64,000 nt of DNA from Pseudomonadota bacterium. Its GTDB lineage: Bacteria > Pseudomonadota > Alphaproteobacteria > Acetobacterales > Acetobacteraceae. The notes under the pieces are model-generated. The model searched no databases. It was not told the DNA's origin and saw only the letters and a list, made by a program, of their open reading frames with translations. Where the stretch lies: contig JAJZBV010000011.1 of the NCBI GenBank assembly GCA_021851785.1, forward strand, positions 1-64,000, in the 5' to 3' direction. This document shows, piece by piece, positions 7,947 to 13,277 of the stretch. Position 1 is the first letter of the stretch; the number at the start of each line of letters is the position of its first letter. The translations under genes were made by a program, and so were the position numbers.

Positions 7947-9107
7947 TCAGAACACCGGCAGCGCCGGCTCATCCTGCCCGGCGATCGCGATGCCTTCGAC
8001 CTCGACCAGCCAATCCGGCCGGCAGACGCGGCCCTGGACGAACACCGCTGGCACGTCCGGAAGACGCTCGGCCAGCGCCGTCCTGATCCGCCAATAATCG
8101 GCGGGATCGCGGAGATAGACGATGAGATGCATGAGCGCGTTGAGGCCGGCATTGCCGGCGCGGAGCAGCGCCGCGACATTCTCGAGCGCGCGGTCGAGCT
8201 GACGAAGGACGTCGCCAGGGTGAACCACGCGGCCGGCGCCATCGATGCTGGCGGTTCCGGAAATCATCAGATGGGCGCGGTCGGCATAGGCGATGCGCGT
8301 GCCGCGCTCGAAGGTGACGTTGTAATCCTGGGTCGGACAGAGATAGTCGAAATCGTTGAGATACGAGATCTGCGCCGGCGCGAGACCGAGAATCGAATAG
8401 GCGTCCATCGCGACGATATCATAACGATGCGCGCACGCCCCCTCGATACCGGTCGAGGCGATGAAATGGGTCGCCGCCGAGAGATCCTGCTCGATGAACA
8501 ACTCGCGCCGGCTGGCCACCATGTCGTTGTAGAAGACATCGACATCCTTGACGTAAATCCAGGTGCGCACGCAATTGTCGCGGAGCGTGCCGCCGAGCCC
8601 GGCGACGACGGAGATCAGGGAGTCGAAGGCCTCCCGTGTCTGACGGGCGACGGGGATCAGCGCGTCCTCGGCGCCGCCGCAGAGGCCGGTGGTCCAGAGA
8701 TGGGCGAGAGAATTTCTGCCGACCAGAACGTGCCGCGGCGTCAGCCATTTCTTGTCCAATCCGCGCGGATCGTCGAGATGATAGGCGAGAAGCGCGATCT
8801 TGGCTTGCGACAGCGGCGGCTGCTGGATCAGCGAGAGCGCCACCGGCGAGCCGTCTTCGTCCGCCGCCAGGCCACTCTTGCGAACCAGCGGCGCCTGGTT
8901 GATCGCATCGCTCAGGAAAACCCGCCGGAACACGGCGCTTCCCGGCGCGAGGCCGAGGGAGCGGCGCGTCGCCTCATAGCGCCGTTCGAGATCTTCGATC
9001 TGACCGGGGAAATCGAGATCGGCATCCGGCTCGATGATGATGAAATGCTCGCCGCCGCTGGATGTGCCAAAAAAGGATTTGCTGACCGCCTTGTTGGTGC
9101 AAAGCAT
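7947..9107 (-). CDS. Two-domain RidA/YjgF-like protein resembling chorismatases, in the ubiTUV operon
   Basis: 386 residues. The C-terminal half (about 265-386) is a clear RidA/YjgF domain, with M-I-S-G-T-A-S-I-D, H-P-G-D-V-L-R-Q, E-N-V-A-A-L-L, and V-C-R-P-D-W-L-V-E-V-E. The N-terminal half is a divergent second copy. This build, and the S-G-T-A-S block followed by a Glu-bearing last strand, is that of the FkbO/Hyg5/XanB2 chorismatases, which split chorismate into hydroxybenzoates. GGAGAG precedes the ATG by 8 bases. It lies 63 bases after ubiV on the same strand. I infer a role in supplying or processing the aromatic precursor for ubiquinone; an ordinary RidA deaminase is the alternative. 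Confidence 0.65.
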   Translation of the reverse strand: MLCTNKAVSKSFFGTSSGGEHFIIIEPDADLDFPGQIEDLERRYEATRRSLGLAPGSAVFRRVFLSDAINQAPLVRKSGLAADEDGSPVALSLIQQPPLSQAKIALLAYHLDDPRGLDKKWLTPRHVLVGRNSLAHLWTTGLCGGAEDALIPVARQTREAFDSLISVVAGLGGTLRDNCVRTWIYVKDVDVFYNDMVASRRELFIEQDLSAATHFIASTGIEGACAHRYDIVAMDAYSILGLAPAQISYLNDFDYLCPTQDYNVTFERGTRIAYADRAHLMISGTASIDGAGRVVHPGDVLRQLDRALENVAALLRAGNAGLNALMHLIVYLRDPADYWRIRTALAERLPDVPAVFVQGRVCRPDWLVEVEGIAIAGQDEPALPVF

Positions 9108-9170
9108 GGAACGGACTCTCCTGTTGTGGGAAGGCGAGATTTCGCGATGGCCAAGCGCCCACGATGCGCG

Positions 9171-10094
9171 CTATCGATGGCGCGCCGGCTGCCATTCCAT
9201 GCCGGGGCGGCCATGGAGATAGCCATTGATGAGGGGAATCGGCGCGATCCATTCCTGAAGCCGCGCCAAAACCTCATCGGTGCTGACAGCGTGATCGAGA
9301 GCCGCGCGATACAGCTCCGCGACCGCGACCATGTCGAGCGCCTGCGGTGACAGGCGGAAATGGCTGACACCGGCCGCGCGCAGGTCATCAAGTTCATCGA
9401 GCAGGACGAAATAGCCATGCGACAAGGTCTGGGTGCCGTTGATCGCGAGCAAGGGGCGGCCATCGAGTTCCGCCGCCGCCAGCCCGTCCGTATCGCGCTC
9501 GCAGACGAACTGGCAATCATCCTTGTGCAAATCATGCGCGCGGGCGTGGTAGCAGCGCTGCGAGATCGCCAGCGGCTGACGGCCGAAAGCGAAGACTTCC
9601 GTCTCCCCGGTCGGATTGCCGGCGGCCAGAGTGGCGAGCGCGGTCTGGGAAAGCTCGATCGGTGCGTTCACGCGCACCGCCCCGAGCCGGACGAGAACAT
9701 CACGTGTCGCTTCGTTGAAGACATTGATCAGCGGGCCGGAGATGAATTTCCGCCCGCCCAACAGCGGCACCGCGGCGAGGTCGTTGATCTCGATGAGATC
9801 CTCCGCCGCGCACTGCGCCGCCAACGCCTCGATCGCCTTCGCCTCCCGCGTCTCGGTGATCAGAGCCGGGGTCGAGAATACCACCTGCTTGCCGGCGCGG
9901 CGCAAGCGCGCGGCGATCTCCGGCAGATCCTTCTCATACCATGCGAGACGCTTGCTGCACACGACCTCGCCGAGATAGATGCAGTCAACCGGTGCCTCAT
10001 CGGCGATGCGGGCATAAAAATCCCGCCGCTGTGCCGCCGGCCAGTGAAACAGCAATGGTCCCAGGGTAAGACGACCCTTCGTCAAGGCGCTCAT
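9171..10094 (-). CDS. ubiV: O2-independent ubiquinone biosynthesis protein UbiV (U32 peptidase family)
   Basis: 307 residues. The ATG at 10094 overlaps the ubiU stop as ATGA; the frame is open further upstream but only antisense to nothing recognisable. The four cysteines that bind the 4Fe-4S cluster in UbiV are seen at C46 (E-V-V-C-S-K-R), C181, C194 and C198 (R-C-Y-H and K-D-D-C-Q-F-V-C). With UbiU it forms the heterodimer that hydroxylates the ubiquinone ring without oxygen. It acts in the cytoplasm with the lipid-binding UbiT. It is third in a coupled operon preceded by a perfect FNR box. Confidence 0.93.
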   Translation of the reverse strand: MSALTKGRLTLGPLLFHWPAAQRRDFYARIADEAPVDCIYLGEVVCSKRLAWYEKDLPEIAARLRRAGKQVVFSTPALITETREAKAIEALAAQCAAEDLIEINDLAAVPLLGGRKFISGPLINVFNEATRDVLVRLGAVRVNAPIELSQTALATLAAGNPTGETEVFAFGRQPLAISQRCYHARAHDLHKDDCQFVCERDTDGLAAAELDGRPLLAINGTQTLSHGYFVLLDELDDLRAAGVSHFRLSPQALDMVAVAELYRAALDHAVSTDEVLARLQEWIAPIPLINGYLHGRPGMEWQPARHR

Positions 10095-11086
10095 CGCCAA
10101 CCTTTCTGATAGGCGCCGAAGGTTTCGCGCCCACCCTCGGCGATCTCGCGCAGCGCTGCCGCTTCCGCCGGCAGCGCCGCCCCCGCCGCGAGCGCGTCGA
10201 GGCTGCGTCGGAACGCCGCGACGACGGCGCCGACATAGGCCCGGCTCCGCTGCCGTCCCTCGATTTTCAGCGCGGTGACGCCGGCGGCTTTGAGTTCCGC
10301 AAGCAGCGGCATGACGTTGAGCGCGGTCGGCTCCTCGAACAAATAGCGAGGCTCGCCGCGCACCAGGAAGCGGCCCTTGCACGGCGTCGGATAAGCGGCT
10401 CCCTCGCCGGCATCGACGCGGTTCATCAGGACCGAGCCGAGATAGGAGGCCAGTTGATCGCCCTCCTCGCGGTAACTCACATGCTCGGCCGGGGCGCAGA
10501 CGCCATCGCAGCTCGGCGAACGTCCGGTCATGTAGGAGGAAAGATAGCACCGCCCCTCGACCATGGTGCCGAGGCTGCCGAAGGCGAATACCTCGGCCTC
10601 GACACCGGTTTCGCCGATCAGCGCGGCAACCTCGGCAACCGCGAGCACGCGCGGCAGGACGACGCGGCTGACGCCGAAGGTTTCCACGTAAAAACGAATA
10701 GCGAACGGGCTCGCCGCCGCTGCCTGCACCGAAAGATGGCGGCGAAGACGGGGATGATGGCGCGCGGCGTAATCGAGCATGCCGAGGTCGGCGAGGATGA
10801 CGGCATCGGCGCCGGCGCCGGCGGCATCGTCGATCGCGCGTTGCCAGGGGCCGAGATCGCCGGCGCGGGGAAAGGTGTTGACGGCGACGAAAACCCGGCA
10901 GCCACGTGCATGCGCATAGGCAACGCCGGCGCGCAGTTCATCGCGGTCGAAATTCAAACCCGGATAGTTGCGCGCGTTGGTGCAATCCTGAAACCCGCAA
11001 TAGACGCTGTCGGCGCCGGCATCGACGGCAACCCGCAACGCTGCCGGCGTGCCGGCGGGGCAAACCAGTTCCAGATAGCGTGTCAT
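10091..11086 (-). CDS. ubiU: O2-independent ubiquinone biosynthesis protein UbiU (U32 peptidase family)
   Basis: 331 residues, starting L-E-L-V-C-P-A-G-T-P-A-A-L as in U32 proteins. The cluster region holds C180 (G-R-C-Y-L-S-S-Y), C193 and C197 (S-P-S-C-D-G-V-C) and C236 (T-P-C-K-G-R-F). UbiU and UbiV together insert hydroxyl groups during anaerobic ubiquinone synthesis; related U32 enzymes take the oxygen from prephenate rather than O2. Its start overlaps the ubiT stop and its stop overlaps the ubiV start, both as ATGA, which implies tight translational coupling and equal expression. Confidence 0.94.
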   Translation of the reverse strand: MTRYLELVCPAGTPAALRVAVDAGADSVYCGFQDCTNARNYPGLNFDRDELRAGVAYAHARGCRVFVAVNTFPRAGDLGPWQRAIDDAAGAGADAVILADLGMLDYAARHHPRLRRHLSVQAAAASPFAIRFYVETFGVSRVVLPRVLAVAEVAALIGETGVEAEVFAFGSLGTMVEGRCYLSSYMTGRSPSCDGVCAPAEHVSYREEGDQLASYLGSVLMNRVDAGEGAAYPTPCKGRFLVRGEPRYLFEEPTALNVMPLLAELKAAGVTALKIEGRQRSRAYVGAVVAAFRRSLDALAAGAALPAEAAALREIAEGGRETFGAYQKGWR

Positions 11087-11754
11087 GCCGCCTTTCCGCT
11101 TTGCCCGCGCCTGCGCATCTGGGCTTCGATCCGTGCCAGGCGTCCGCTCAATGTCTGTATTTCGTGCTCCAGCCGCTCACACCGGATGGCGAGCGGCGAA
11201 GGTTCACGCCGCGCCGCGTGGAAGGCGTCATGTCGCTGCTCGGCGCGCCTTCGCGCCAAGACGATGTGCCTCTCAAGGGTCAGCGCCATGCGTTGCGCAA
11301 CCCGCGCCGCCGGCCCGAACACCTCGGTTGTCGCCGCAAACAGATCGACCGCGTCACGCTCCAGCGCATTGCGCAGGGTGACGATCGCGGCCGTGTTGCC
11401 GACGACGGTGATTTCGCGTGAAAAGAACGCGGCATCGCTGTCCAGCCGGCCTTCGAGCAACGCGAGCAGCGCCGCGAGCCGGCCTTTGACGGTGGCGCTC
11501 GGCGTTTGCGCGAAATGCGCGGCCGCCGCCAGGCTTACTGCCCCGCCGCCGAAGCGCAGCAGGAAGCGATGCGGAAGATCGCTCGGCTCGATACCGATCA
11601 GCATCGGCGGTTGCGCGGCAAGCGCGCGAAAAAGCCGCGGATGCCGGCGCTCAAGCCGGCGCATCAAGACCGCCGCCGCCCGTGTCAGCACCGGCGCCGG
11701 CAGCCTGGACAAGACATTGCCTGCCAGCAGAATGGGAAATTCGAGTTCCGCCAC
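11083..11754 (-). CDS. ubiT: Ubiquinone biosynthesis accessory factor UbiT (SCP2 domain)
   Basis: 223 residues from a GTG at 11754. AGGAGG sits 8 bases before that GTG, whereas the longer open frame back to 11874 has no ribosome site and would run over the FNR box. Residues about 50-150 form the SCP2 lipid-binding fold, with R-F-L-L-R-F-G-G-G and V-K-G-R-L-A-A-L-L-A-L-L-E-G. The C-terminal 40 residues look like a coiled coil (R-L-E-H-E-I-Q-T-L-S-G-R-L). UbiT is thought to carry the hydrophobic intermediates for UbiU-UbiV. It is the first gene of the operon. Confidence 0.88.
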   Translation of the reverse strand: MAELEFPILLAGNVLSRLPAPVLTRAAAVLMRRLERRHPRLFRALAAQPPMLIGIEPSDLPHRFLLRFGGGAVSLAAAAHFAQTPSATVKGRLAALLALLEGRLDSDAAFFSREITVVGNTAAIVTLRNALERDAVDLFAATTEVFGPAARVAQRMALTLERHIVLARRRAEQRHDAFHAARREPSPLAIRCERLEHEIQTLSGRLARIEAQMRRRGQSGKAA

Positions 11755-11841: not shown

Positions 11842-11855
11842 TTGATCTAGATCAA
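11842..11855. promoter_or_regulatory. Perfect FNR box TTGATCTAGATCAA between ubiT and the oxygenase pair
   Basis: The 14-mer is a complete palindrome and matches the FNR/FnrL consensus TTGAT-N4-ATCAA at every position. It lies 88 bases before the ubiT GTG and 62 bases before the ATG of the divergent gene. Both spacings allow a site at about -41.5 for each direction, or a repressing position for one of them. It ties the anaerobic ubiquinone genes to oxygen sensing. Confidence 0.82.
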
Positions 11856-11916: not shown

Positions 11917-12588
11917 ATGCCGAATACCGACGCGTCGCTCAAAATGCTCGATGAATCGGCGATTGCCGCGGCAAAGCTGGTGCAGGATCCTTATGATTAC
12001 GCCTTCGTCGAGCAGGCGATGCCAGCCGCCCTGAAGGAGGAAGTCCTCGCCGACGCGCCGGTCATTCCGGATCGTGGCAGCTATGGGCTGCCCAGCCTGC
12101 GCTACGGGACACGCTTCGGCGCCGTCGTCCAGGATCTGCTGAGCGCCCGATTCCGCCGCCTGGTCGAGGACAAATTCGATATGGATTTGAGCCGTCGGCC
12201 GCCGGTCATCGTCATGATGGGCAACACCACCGGCCATTACAACGAGGGCTACGCGCATCCCGATTCGAAACACAAGATCGTGACCGTGCTGCTCGGCTTC
12301 ACCCGCGCCTGGCCCTATGAGCGGGGCCGGCTCCGCGTCCTGCGCAGCGCCGACCGCGAGGATGTCGCCTTCGAATTCGCCCCCGAATTCGGCCGCATGC
12401 TGATGTTCCGGGTGTGCGACCATTCCTGGCACGGCTTCCTGCCGCAGAAGGGGCCGCGGATGAGCCTGCAATTGTGCTTCGTCGATTCGGAATGGTACGT
12501 CCGGCGCGAATACTGGCGCCACAGCGCCAGCGCGATGGCGAAATCCATTCCCGTCCTCAATAAAATCATCGAATGGGCGCCACGCTGA
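11917..12588 (+). CDS. 2OG-Fe(II) oxygenase-like protein A
   Basis: 223 residues from the ATG at 11917, which has GAGGGGAC 8 bases upstream; a TTG at 11899 is possible but would bury that site. A double-stranded beta-helix is suggested, with H114-P-D116 (iron ligands), H172 in S-W-H-G-F as the distal ligand, and R181 in G-P-R-M-S-L-Q-L-C-F as a candidate 2-oxoglutarate anchor. Strand G-H-Y-N-E-G-Y precedes the H-X-D. The substrate is unknown; small-molecule or protein hydroxylation is possible. It is the first gene divergent from ubiT across the FNR box and is followed after 11 bases by a second oxygenase. Confidence 0.72.
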   Translation: MPNTDASLKMLDESAIAAAKLVQDPYDYAFVEQAMPAALKEEVLADAPVIPDRGSYGLPSLRYGTRFGAVVQDLLSARFRRLVEDKFDMDLSRRPPVIVMMGNTTGHYNEGYAHPDSKHKIVTVLLGFTRAWPYERGRLRVLRSADREDVAFEFAPEFGRMLMFRVCDHSWHGFLPQKGPRMSLQLCFVDSEWYVRREYWRHSASAMAKSIPVLNKIIEWAPR

Positions 12589-12599
12589 AGGGAGCCGCC

Positions 12600-13277
12600 A
12601 TGACCTATCCCAAAATCCCCAGCGCCGGCGAGGTCTCCCGCCAGTTCTGCGCCAGCATCGGTGCGGCACAACGCAAGGAGACGCCCTATCGCCATTGGCT
12701 GTTCACGGAGATTTTTCCAGAGCGGCTCTGCACCGGCATTCTGACCTTGCCGATCGCGCCGCCCGCTCTCGGCCGCACCGACGGCACCCGCAACAGCTAT
12801 AACGACCGGCGCAGCTTCATCACCCCAAAGCTCCGCGAAAAATTCCCGACCTGCGCCGTCCTCGCCGAGGCGCTACAGACGCCGGACGTCGCCCGGCTGA
12901 TGGCCAGAACCTGCGACATCGTGGTTGATGGCAGCTTCCTGCGCATCGAATATATCCAGGATCTGGACGGCGCCTGGCTCGAGCCGCACCATGACATTCC
13001 GGAAAAACTGTTTTCCATGGTGATCTATCTCTTCACCGGTCCGGATGCGAAGGAATGGGGCACCGATATCTACGACAGTGAAAAGCGCTGGGTCGGCCAA
13101 TCCTTGGGCGAGTTCAATTCCGGCGTGATTTTCGTGCCCGGCGAAAATACCTGGCATGGTTTCGAGCCGCGTCCGATCATCGGCGTCCGCCGCCTGATGG
13201 AAATCAACTATGTCGCCCCGAACTGGCGTGACCGCGAGCAGCTCTGCTTCCCCGACCAGCCGATCCGCACCGGCTGA
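12600..13277 (+). CDS. 2OG-Fe(II) oxygenase-like protein B
   Basis: 225 residues. H130-H-D132 in L-E-P-H-H-D-I-P and H186 in N-T-W-H-G-F-E-P-R give the iron triad. R197/R198 in G-V-R-R-L-M-E-I-N-Y is placed to bind the 2-oxoglutarate carboxylate. It shares the W-H-G-F signature and size with the preceding gene but little else, so the pair looks like an old duplication or a two-component enzyme. GAAGGGAGCC precedes the ATG. These are O2-dependent enzymes by family, which makes their position next to anaerobic ubiquinone genes notable. Substrate unknown. Confidence 0.74.
   Translation: MTYPKIPSAGEVSRQFCASIGAAQRKETPYRHWLFTEIFPERLCTGILTLPIAPPALGRTDGTRNSYNDRRSFITPKLREKFPTCAVLAEALQTPDVARLMARTCDIVVDGSFLRIEYIQDLDGAWLEPHHDIPEKLFSMVIYLFTGPDAKEWGTDIYDSEKRWVGQSLGEFNSGVIFVPGENTWHGFEPRPIIGVRRLMEINYVAPNWRDREQLCFPDQPIRTG

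Follow-up and report, generated by a model that had tools for sequence, protein, structure and literature searches.

We investigated chor, a gene for a 386-residue protein in a 64,000-nucleotide stretch of an Acetobacteraceae genome (GenBank assembly GCA_021851785.1, contig JAJZBV010000011.1, positions 1 to 64,000; hereafter the window). Its product has a predicted chorismatase fold, its operon lies behind a perfect FNR-type box, and across genomes it is accompanied by two putative iron(II)/2-oxoglutarate (Fe(II)/2OG) oxygenase genes, oxA and oxB, more steadily than by the ubiTUV genes that stand next to it in the window. We give an even chance to the reading that chor, oxA and oxB form an FNR-controlled low-oxygen module, probably using chorismate and largely co-inherited with O2-independent ubiquinone synthesis. 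The fuller version has a somewhat less than even chance: that the three genes are an FNR-controlled route to a chorismate-derived aromatic metabolite at low oxygen, in which a new chorismatase clade is joined to two paired 2OG oxygenases, in Pseudomonadota and other phyla, and is largely inherited with O2-independent ubiquinone synthesis.

In the window, chor (7947..9107, minus strand) follows ubiT (11083..11754, SCP2 domain, GTG start), ubiU (10091..11086) and ubiV (9171..10094) on the same strand, the last two encoding U32-family proteins. All three ubi products score above their NCBIfam equivalog cut-offs (UbiT, NF047962, 52 bits against 46.9; UbiU, NF047963, 490 against 440; UbiV, NF047965, 356 against 275). 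The open reading frames of ubiT and ubiU, and of ubiU and ubiV, overlap by 4 bases each (ATGA), a gap of 63 bases separates ubiV from chor, and cobG, convergent to chor, is next past its end. A motif scan located the perfect FNR-type box TTGATCTAGATCAA (11842..11855, no strand), the sole perfect match within the window, 87 bases ahead of the ubiT start and, on the other side, 61 bases from the start of oxA. The divergent genes are oxA (11917..12588, plus strand, 223 residues; PF13640, 31 bits, cut-off 27) and oxB (12600..13277, plus strand, 225 residues; PF13640, 18 bits, below the cut-off of 27). An earlier, sequence-only reading of this DNA had described an FNR-boxed operon of ubiTUV and a fourth gene, whose 386-residue product carries an SGTAS motif and a Glu in its last strand. 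The operon is as described, SGTAS occupies residues 283-287 and Glu369 lies within strand 368-377; that the box also faces oxA and oxB, the more constant partners of chor, was absent from that reading.

The chor protein matched the NCBIfam chorismatase model TIGR04444 with 61 bits, below the curated cut-off of 325, which is an unfair test since it is reached by no protein in a sample of 398 Pseudomonadota genomes, strong matches included. Eleven other genomes of this sample have a match at 1e-10, scoring 152-225 bits. Chor is thus a distant relative of the chorismatases and not a member of TIGR04444. Its C-terminal half is RidA-like (Pfam RidA domain, 52 bits). An AlphaFold2 model built from 39 sequences, with a predicted local distance difference test score (pLDDT) of 92, showed a two-domain YjgF-type fold spanning the whole chain, the build of a chorismatase. 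In a Foldseek search with this model, FkbO and Hyg5 were found with E values of 3e-19 to 9e-18, the best RidA-type protein with 8e-8. The VIA comparison gave Z scores of 31 to FkbO/Hyg5 over 299-303 residues at 21-22% identity and of at most 11.9 to RidA types, two FBXO22 entries (Z about 13) coming next after the chorismatases. The chor profile also matched ten proteins that we label XanB2-like (10 of the 11 strong TIGR04444 matches, L117 being excluded for its unclear start) with a probability of 99.7% over 216 columns. The substrate-binding Arg of RidA, which we take to be R105 in E. coli, aligns with position 356 of chor, where none of 39 rows (the window and 38 of 76 chor sequences) has an Arg. 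RidA/YjgF imine deaminases share the fold of the C-terminal domain, whereas they measure 120-140 residues against a single chain of 386. Fold, length and the Arg position rule out an ordinary RidA deaminase, and the predicted structure places chor in the chorismatase fold. The kinship with FkbO/Hyg5 and XanB2-like proteins that had been proposed from sequence was therefore upheld by profile, fold and residue comparisons.

The active-site positions were then compared in the same 39 rows. R181, W183, G284, C362 and E369 are present in all of them, the window included, and E369 aligns with the catalytic Glu of Hyg5 on a C-R-x-x-x-L-V-E strand. Residues common with the XanB2-like proteins are R181, W183, Y193, R200, Q246, SGT, Q303, N310, Y331, D337, C362, R363 and E369, each kept in all 39 sequences or in all but one. 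In Hyg5, Glu334 is the catalytic acid, and a Gly/Gly/Cys signature marks the 3-hydroxybenzoate-forming type (PMC7170507). With the Nat-hyg5 numbering (164/231/318) of this CH-II signature carried to chor by a constant offset, an inferred correspondence, the positions fall on G220 (38/39), G284 (39/39) and C362 (39/39). At the position of Gly220 the XanB2-like rows have A or V in eight of ten and G in two. By alignment, the conserved active-site residues of chor are thus those of the 3-hydroxybenzoate-forming Hyg5 type, with the caveat that alignment alone cannot accurately predict the reaction of a chorismatase (PMC3949708).

Conservation of the box was examined in loci from named records, the best 80 of 173 relatives, whose contigs are often short so that linkage counts are lower bounds. 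The count covers 76 of them, in an interval that reaches from 300 bases before the predicted start of the chor-holding operon to 30 bases past it; L036, L044, L052 and L089, with fewer than 300 bases upstream, were dropped, of which L052 has a perfect box. A perfect TTGATN4ATCAA stands ahead of the chor operon in 32/76 loci, the first gene behind it being chor in 18, ubiT in nine, oxA in three and oxB in two. From the background of 11 perfect sites, counted over 1,042,702 positions elsewhere with coding sequence among them, 0.25 would be expected (0.003 per upstream interval); when the arm letters were reordered, none of the 19 alternative motifs occurred in any of the 76 loci. The perfect box is also present in 20 of the 52 loci that have no nearby ubi gene. 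On the chor tree (a short search with support from the Shimodaira-Hasegawa-like approximate likelihood ratio test only, leaving out the four of 80 chor genes that are broken or cut, L089, L095, L101 and L107), the FNR-box label changes 12 times. A perfect box between ubiT and a divergent oxA recurs in L034, L035 and L037. Where oxA-oxB is not linked to chor, it has its own perfect box in 4/9 further genomes (G642, which is the same as G171, G632, G608 and G647), a count that omits G648, with a box between ubiT and oxA, and G634, whose second full trio has no box within 400 bases of oxA. These boxes point to FNR control of the chor operon. Inside oxB, the FNR-like site CTGATGGAAATCAA (13194-13207) was rejected as false, as it arises from conserved codons and recurs at the corresponding coding position in many relatives; the box-like CTGATGGARATCAA, also inside oxB, is coding sequence and was left out of the count. 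Scans for promoters and terminators did not rise above chance.

Among the neighbours of chor in 83 loci (repeats of one genome included, L018 being L060) we counted pdxS in eight, pdxT in eight, nrdD in seven, nrdG in six, a cydA-like gene in four and two clusters of FNR-family regulators, of four and three. Most of these are genes of oxygen limitation. NCBIfam supplied the names for representatives of pdxS, nrdD, nrdG, cydA (below its cut-off) and the regulators, and pdxT was named by eye; of the regulators, one is FnrL-like, with 235 bits against a cut-off of 300, and the other comes closest to FtrB, also below cut-off. In an Acidiphilium-like group (L037, which is from Acidiphilium iwatense, L038, L104 and L015), pdxS-like and pdxT-like genes come soon past ubiTUV-chor.

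OxA and OxB carry the residues of 2OG oxygenases. In OxA, the HxD...H...R set H114, D116, H172 and R181 is present in 16/16 sequences (the window and 15 of 58), as are H130, D132, H186, R197 and R198 in 16/16 sequences of OxB (the window and 15 of 56). The OxB family profile matched 9ei6, named PasI, with an E value of 7e-4. The AlphaFold2 model of OxA (pLDDT 80) has PasI and PolD (20% identity) as nearest solved folds, followed by prolyl hydroxylases, so that no substrate can be named for it; going by the title of its entry, the PasI structure contains an octosyl-acid-type phosphate.

These two genes are the steadier partners of chor: oxA and/or oxB lie in 61/80 chor loci, ubi genes in 25/80. 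In a survey of 200 genomes of the order, a high-scoring oxA (429-446 bits) was found in exactly the nine genomes that have chor, the next score being 142. For loci without oxA, we searched the rest of the genome (20 genome handles, G171 and G642 being one genome), and of the 13 distinct Pseudomonadota chor genomes among them, 11 proved to have a high-scoring oxA (at least 377 bits) at another place. All three genes also occur together in two records labelled Omnitrophota, the labels being taken as recorded. The sequence-only reading of a self-contained four-gene ubi module does not hold as a whole, and such a module is ruled out as the entire story, with oxA-oxB being closer partners of chor than the ubi genes.

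Several further arrangements of these genes were noted. In G171 (L180:4823-8640), oxA-oxB lies away from chor, after an NrdG-like gene (named by eye) and before a TrpB-like gene. In G192 (L015:11191-12233), a second chor copy beside an intact oxA-oxB is broken in different frames and the ubiTUV-linked copy is intact; one copy may have replaced the other. G634 (L159), the genome of L103, holds a second chor, 54% identical to that of the window, in a full chor-oxA-oxB trio, so that the lone chor of L103 is an extra copy. The oxA profile has hits in 133/200 genomes of the order, the nine true ones among them, the rest being a distant oxA paralog. The neighbourhoods of this paralog gave no clue to its function; in several genomes (L171, L172, L173-L179) its neighbour, named by eye, is a gene for an AFG1-like ATPase or for a 2-oxoglutarate dehydrogenase, and it is paired with an oxB-like gene (44-45%) in L173 and L174.

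Chor is tied to ubiTUV as well, not exclusively. Of the 200 genomes surveyed in the order, nine have chor, 14 have UbiV and eight have both (Fisher p 5e-10 by genome), that is, UbiV in 8/9 chor genomes against 6/191 others; G180 was counted as lacking chor, as only the RidA-like end matched (33%, 49 bits). By genus, UbiV is found in 4/5 chor genera against 5/46 others (p 0.002), the genomes being related. The predicted linkage of chor to ubiTUV in relatives was borne out, in five of the nine chor genomes of the order and in 25 of the 80 loci. UbiV is encoded away from the locus in 36 of 50 further chor genomes and was not found in the other 14; in four more, UbiV is present in G065, G089 and G171 and not in G112. 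Overall, 64/72 Pseudomonadota chor genomes have UbiU or UbiV. The arrangement varies, chor being in line upstream, in line downstream, divergent or convergent to the ubi genes. On the chor tree, the ubi-linkage label needs 14 changes, a number inflated by short contigs, of which at least nine are forced by well-supported branches; linkage is clustered, 0/500 shuffles being as low. Beyond Pseudomonadota, chor occurs in records bearing the labels Verrucomicrobiota, Elusimicrobiota, Planctomycetota and Omnitrophota. In the source genome, two weaker UbiV-like (U32) matches of 62 and 27 bits stand side by side elsewhere (G000:C35:83864-85746).

Several results weigh against an FNR-controlled chor-oxA-oxB module co-inherited with ubiTUV. 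A perfect box is lacking in 36 of the 68 Pseudomonadota loci (present in 32) and was found in 0/8 loci outside this phylum. UbiV was not found in 7/43 Pseudomonadota chor genomes without local ubi genes (those of L051, L052, L074, L102, L107, L108 and L109). Chor occurs without a high-scoring oxA, and the three genes are therefore not inseparable: G607 and G624, two of the 13 Pseudomonadota genomes above, have none, and six of six tested chor genomes of other phyla whose locus has no oxA (Verrucomicrobiota three, Elusimicrobiota two, Planctomycetota one) lack it as well. Related loci are not independent, and oxygenases within an FNR set make sense only given a low-oxygen range in which they work. 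At the level of the protein, chor is only about 20% identical to the solved chorismatases and, of the ENxxQ motif of the XanB2-like rows, keeps only the Q (Q246), E and N being lost.

The last two points, together with PasI and PolD as nearest solved folds of OxA, would fit a chor that keeps the fold and binds a ligand other than chorismate, be it another enolpyruvyl compound, an aromatic acid or the target of a detoxifying Rid-like role. We consider this unlikely, as the catalytic Glu, the Cys, SGT, R-x-W, Y and R positions are common to XanB2-like proteins and Hyg5, and the RidA Arg position is never Arg in chor.

The proposal of the sequence-only reading, that chor supplies 4-hydroxybenzoate for O2-independent ubiquinone synthesis where the chorismate lyase UbiC is missing, is in our view unlikely. 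The source genome indeed has no UbiC, as had been expected, and no second TIGR04444 match above 15 bits; the short ubiV-chor gap and the frequency of UbiV or UbiU in chor genomes of the order and of Pseudomonadota speak for it too, as does the report that the 4-hydroxybenzoate source is open in Hyphomicrobium denitrificans, an alphaproteobacterium without UbiC and XanB2 (PMC12423496). However, UbiC is missing in 192/200 genomes of the order, 183 of which also lack chor, and the eight genomes that have it all belong to one genus without chor or UbiV, so that a missing UbiC is uninformative as to chor. UbiV without either chor or UbiC occurs in six of the order's genomes (G103, G109, G121, G132, G153 and G156), and UbiC is present in 14 of 50 tested chor genomes. 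Outside Pseudomonadota, UbiV was not found in any of seven tested chor genomes, and phyla outside Pseudomonadota are said to lack ubiquinone pathways (PMC11707229). The Hyg5-type residues of chor also argue against 4-hydroxybenzoate, and the steady oxA/oxB partners would be left unexplained. The survey of co-occurrence thus confirmed the linkage of chor to ubiTUV and took away the significance of the missing UbiC; chor as a general substitute for UbiC is ruled out, and of the sequence-only reading the chorismatase kinship, the lack of UbiC and the ubiTUV linkage stand, while the dedicated 4-hydroxybenzoate supply does not.

That chor makes or handles a prephenate-like oxygen donor for UbiUV hydroxylation, as UbiUV are U32 proteins, prephenate has been suggested as donor for a U32 relative (PMC10470549) and ubi linkage needs its many changes on the chor tree, is very unlikely, given that an E. 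coli control has UbiV over the cut-off and no TIGR04444 match at 1e-10, that six genomes of the order have UbiV without chor and that chor occurs without UbiV.

A secondary-metabolite cluster was considered for five Hyphomicrobiales-type loci (L059, L081, L102, L107 and L112), in which the trio lies beside genes for an acyl carrier protein (ACP), a FabZ-like protein, two ketosynthases, a reductase, an alcohol dehydrogenase and an acyltransferase. It was rejected, since the NCBIfam names in L102, the only set scanned, include a lipid A acyltransferase, favouring a lipid A set, whose acyl-carrier and acyltransferase genes are presumably those named acpXL/lpxXL. In L081 and L112, ubiU and/or ubiV stand at the edge of the ACP-FabZ-ketosynthase set; oxA/oxB-like paralogs lie near the trio in L102 and L107, an oxA-like paralog in L059, and FNR-family regulators are near too.

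Returning to the FNR-controlled chor-oxA-oxB module, we infer that chor would take chorismate or a near enolpyruvyl relative and release pyruvate and a hydroxybenzoate, 3-hydroxybenzoate being likelier than 4-hydroxybenzoate. OxA and OxB would then oxygenate this product or its carrier when oxygen is scarce but not absent. In the window, the single FNR box would switch on ubiTUV-chor on one side and oxA-oxB on the other. The tie to ubiTUV may reflect a shared low-oxygen programme whose genes are repeatedly brought together, and a shared metabolite may or may not be included.

Among known systems, chor resembles the CH-II chorismatase Hyg5 (PDB 5ag3/5a3k) in its fold over about 300 residues and keeps the equivalents, by our own count of the numbering, of Glu334, Cys327 and Gly240; it differs in its low identity and in belonging to an FNR-boxed set with two oxygenases, whereas the Hyg5-type cases described supply antibiotic starter units (PMC7170507). 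With the XanB2-like proteins it shares R-x-W, Y, R, SGT, Q, N, CR and E, and differs in the ENxxQ motif, in Gly220 and in its lower TIGR04444 score. FNR-controlled ubiTUV with an upstream box is known (PMC10470549, PMC11707229); the accessible portions of these papers mention neither a fourth gene chor nor a divergent oxA-oxB on the same box, and the word 'oxygenase' is absent from the text of PMC11707229. Our search covered open papers, most subscription papers being outside its scope. In it we found no paper joining UbiUV with a chorismatase, none with three of UbiU, 2OG-Fe, FNR and RidA, and no description of the chor protein group, its FNR boxes or its pairing with two 2OG oxygenases. The chorismatase fold itself is known.

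The formation of 4-hydroxybenzoate without UbiC is open in some alphaproteobacteria (PMC12423496), as is the source of the oxygen atom used by UbiUV (PMC10470549), and the presence of chor within ubiTUV makes both questions testable. Recurring in many genomes and preceded by FNR boxes of its own, the chor-oxA-oxB set suggests a pathway of aromatic metabolism at low oxygen.

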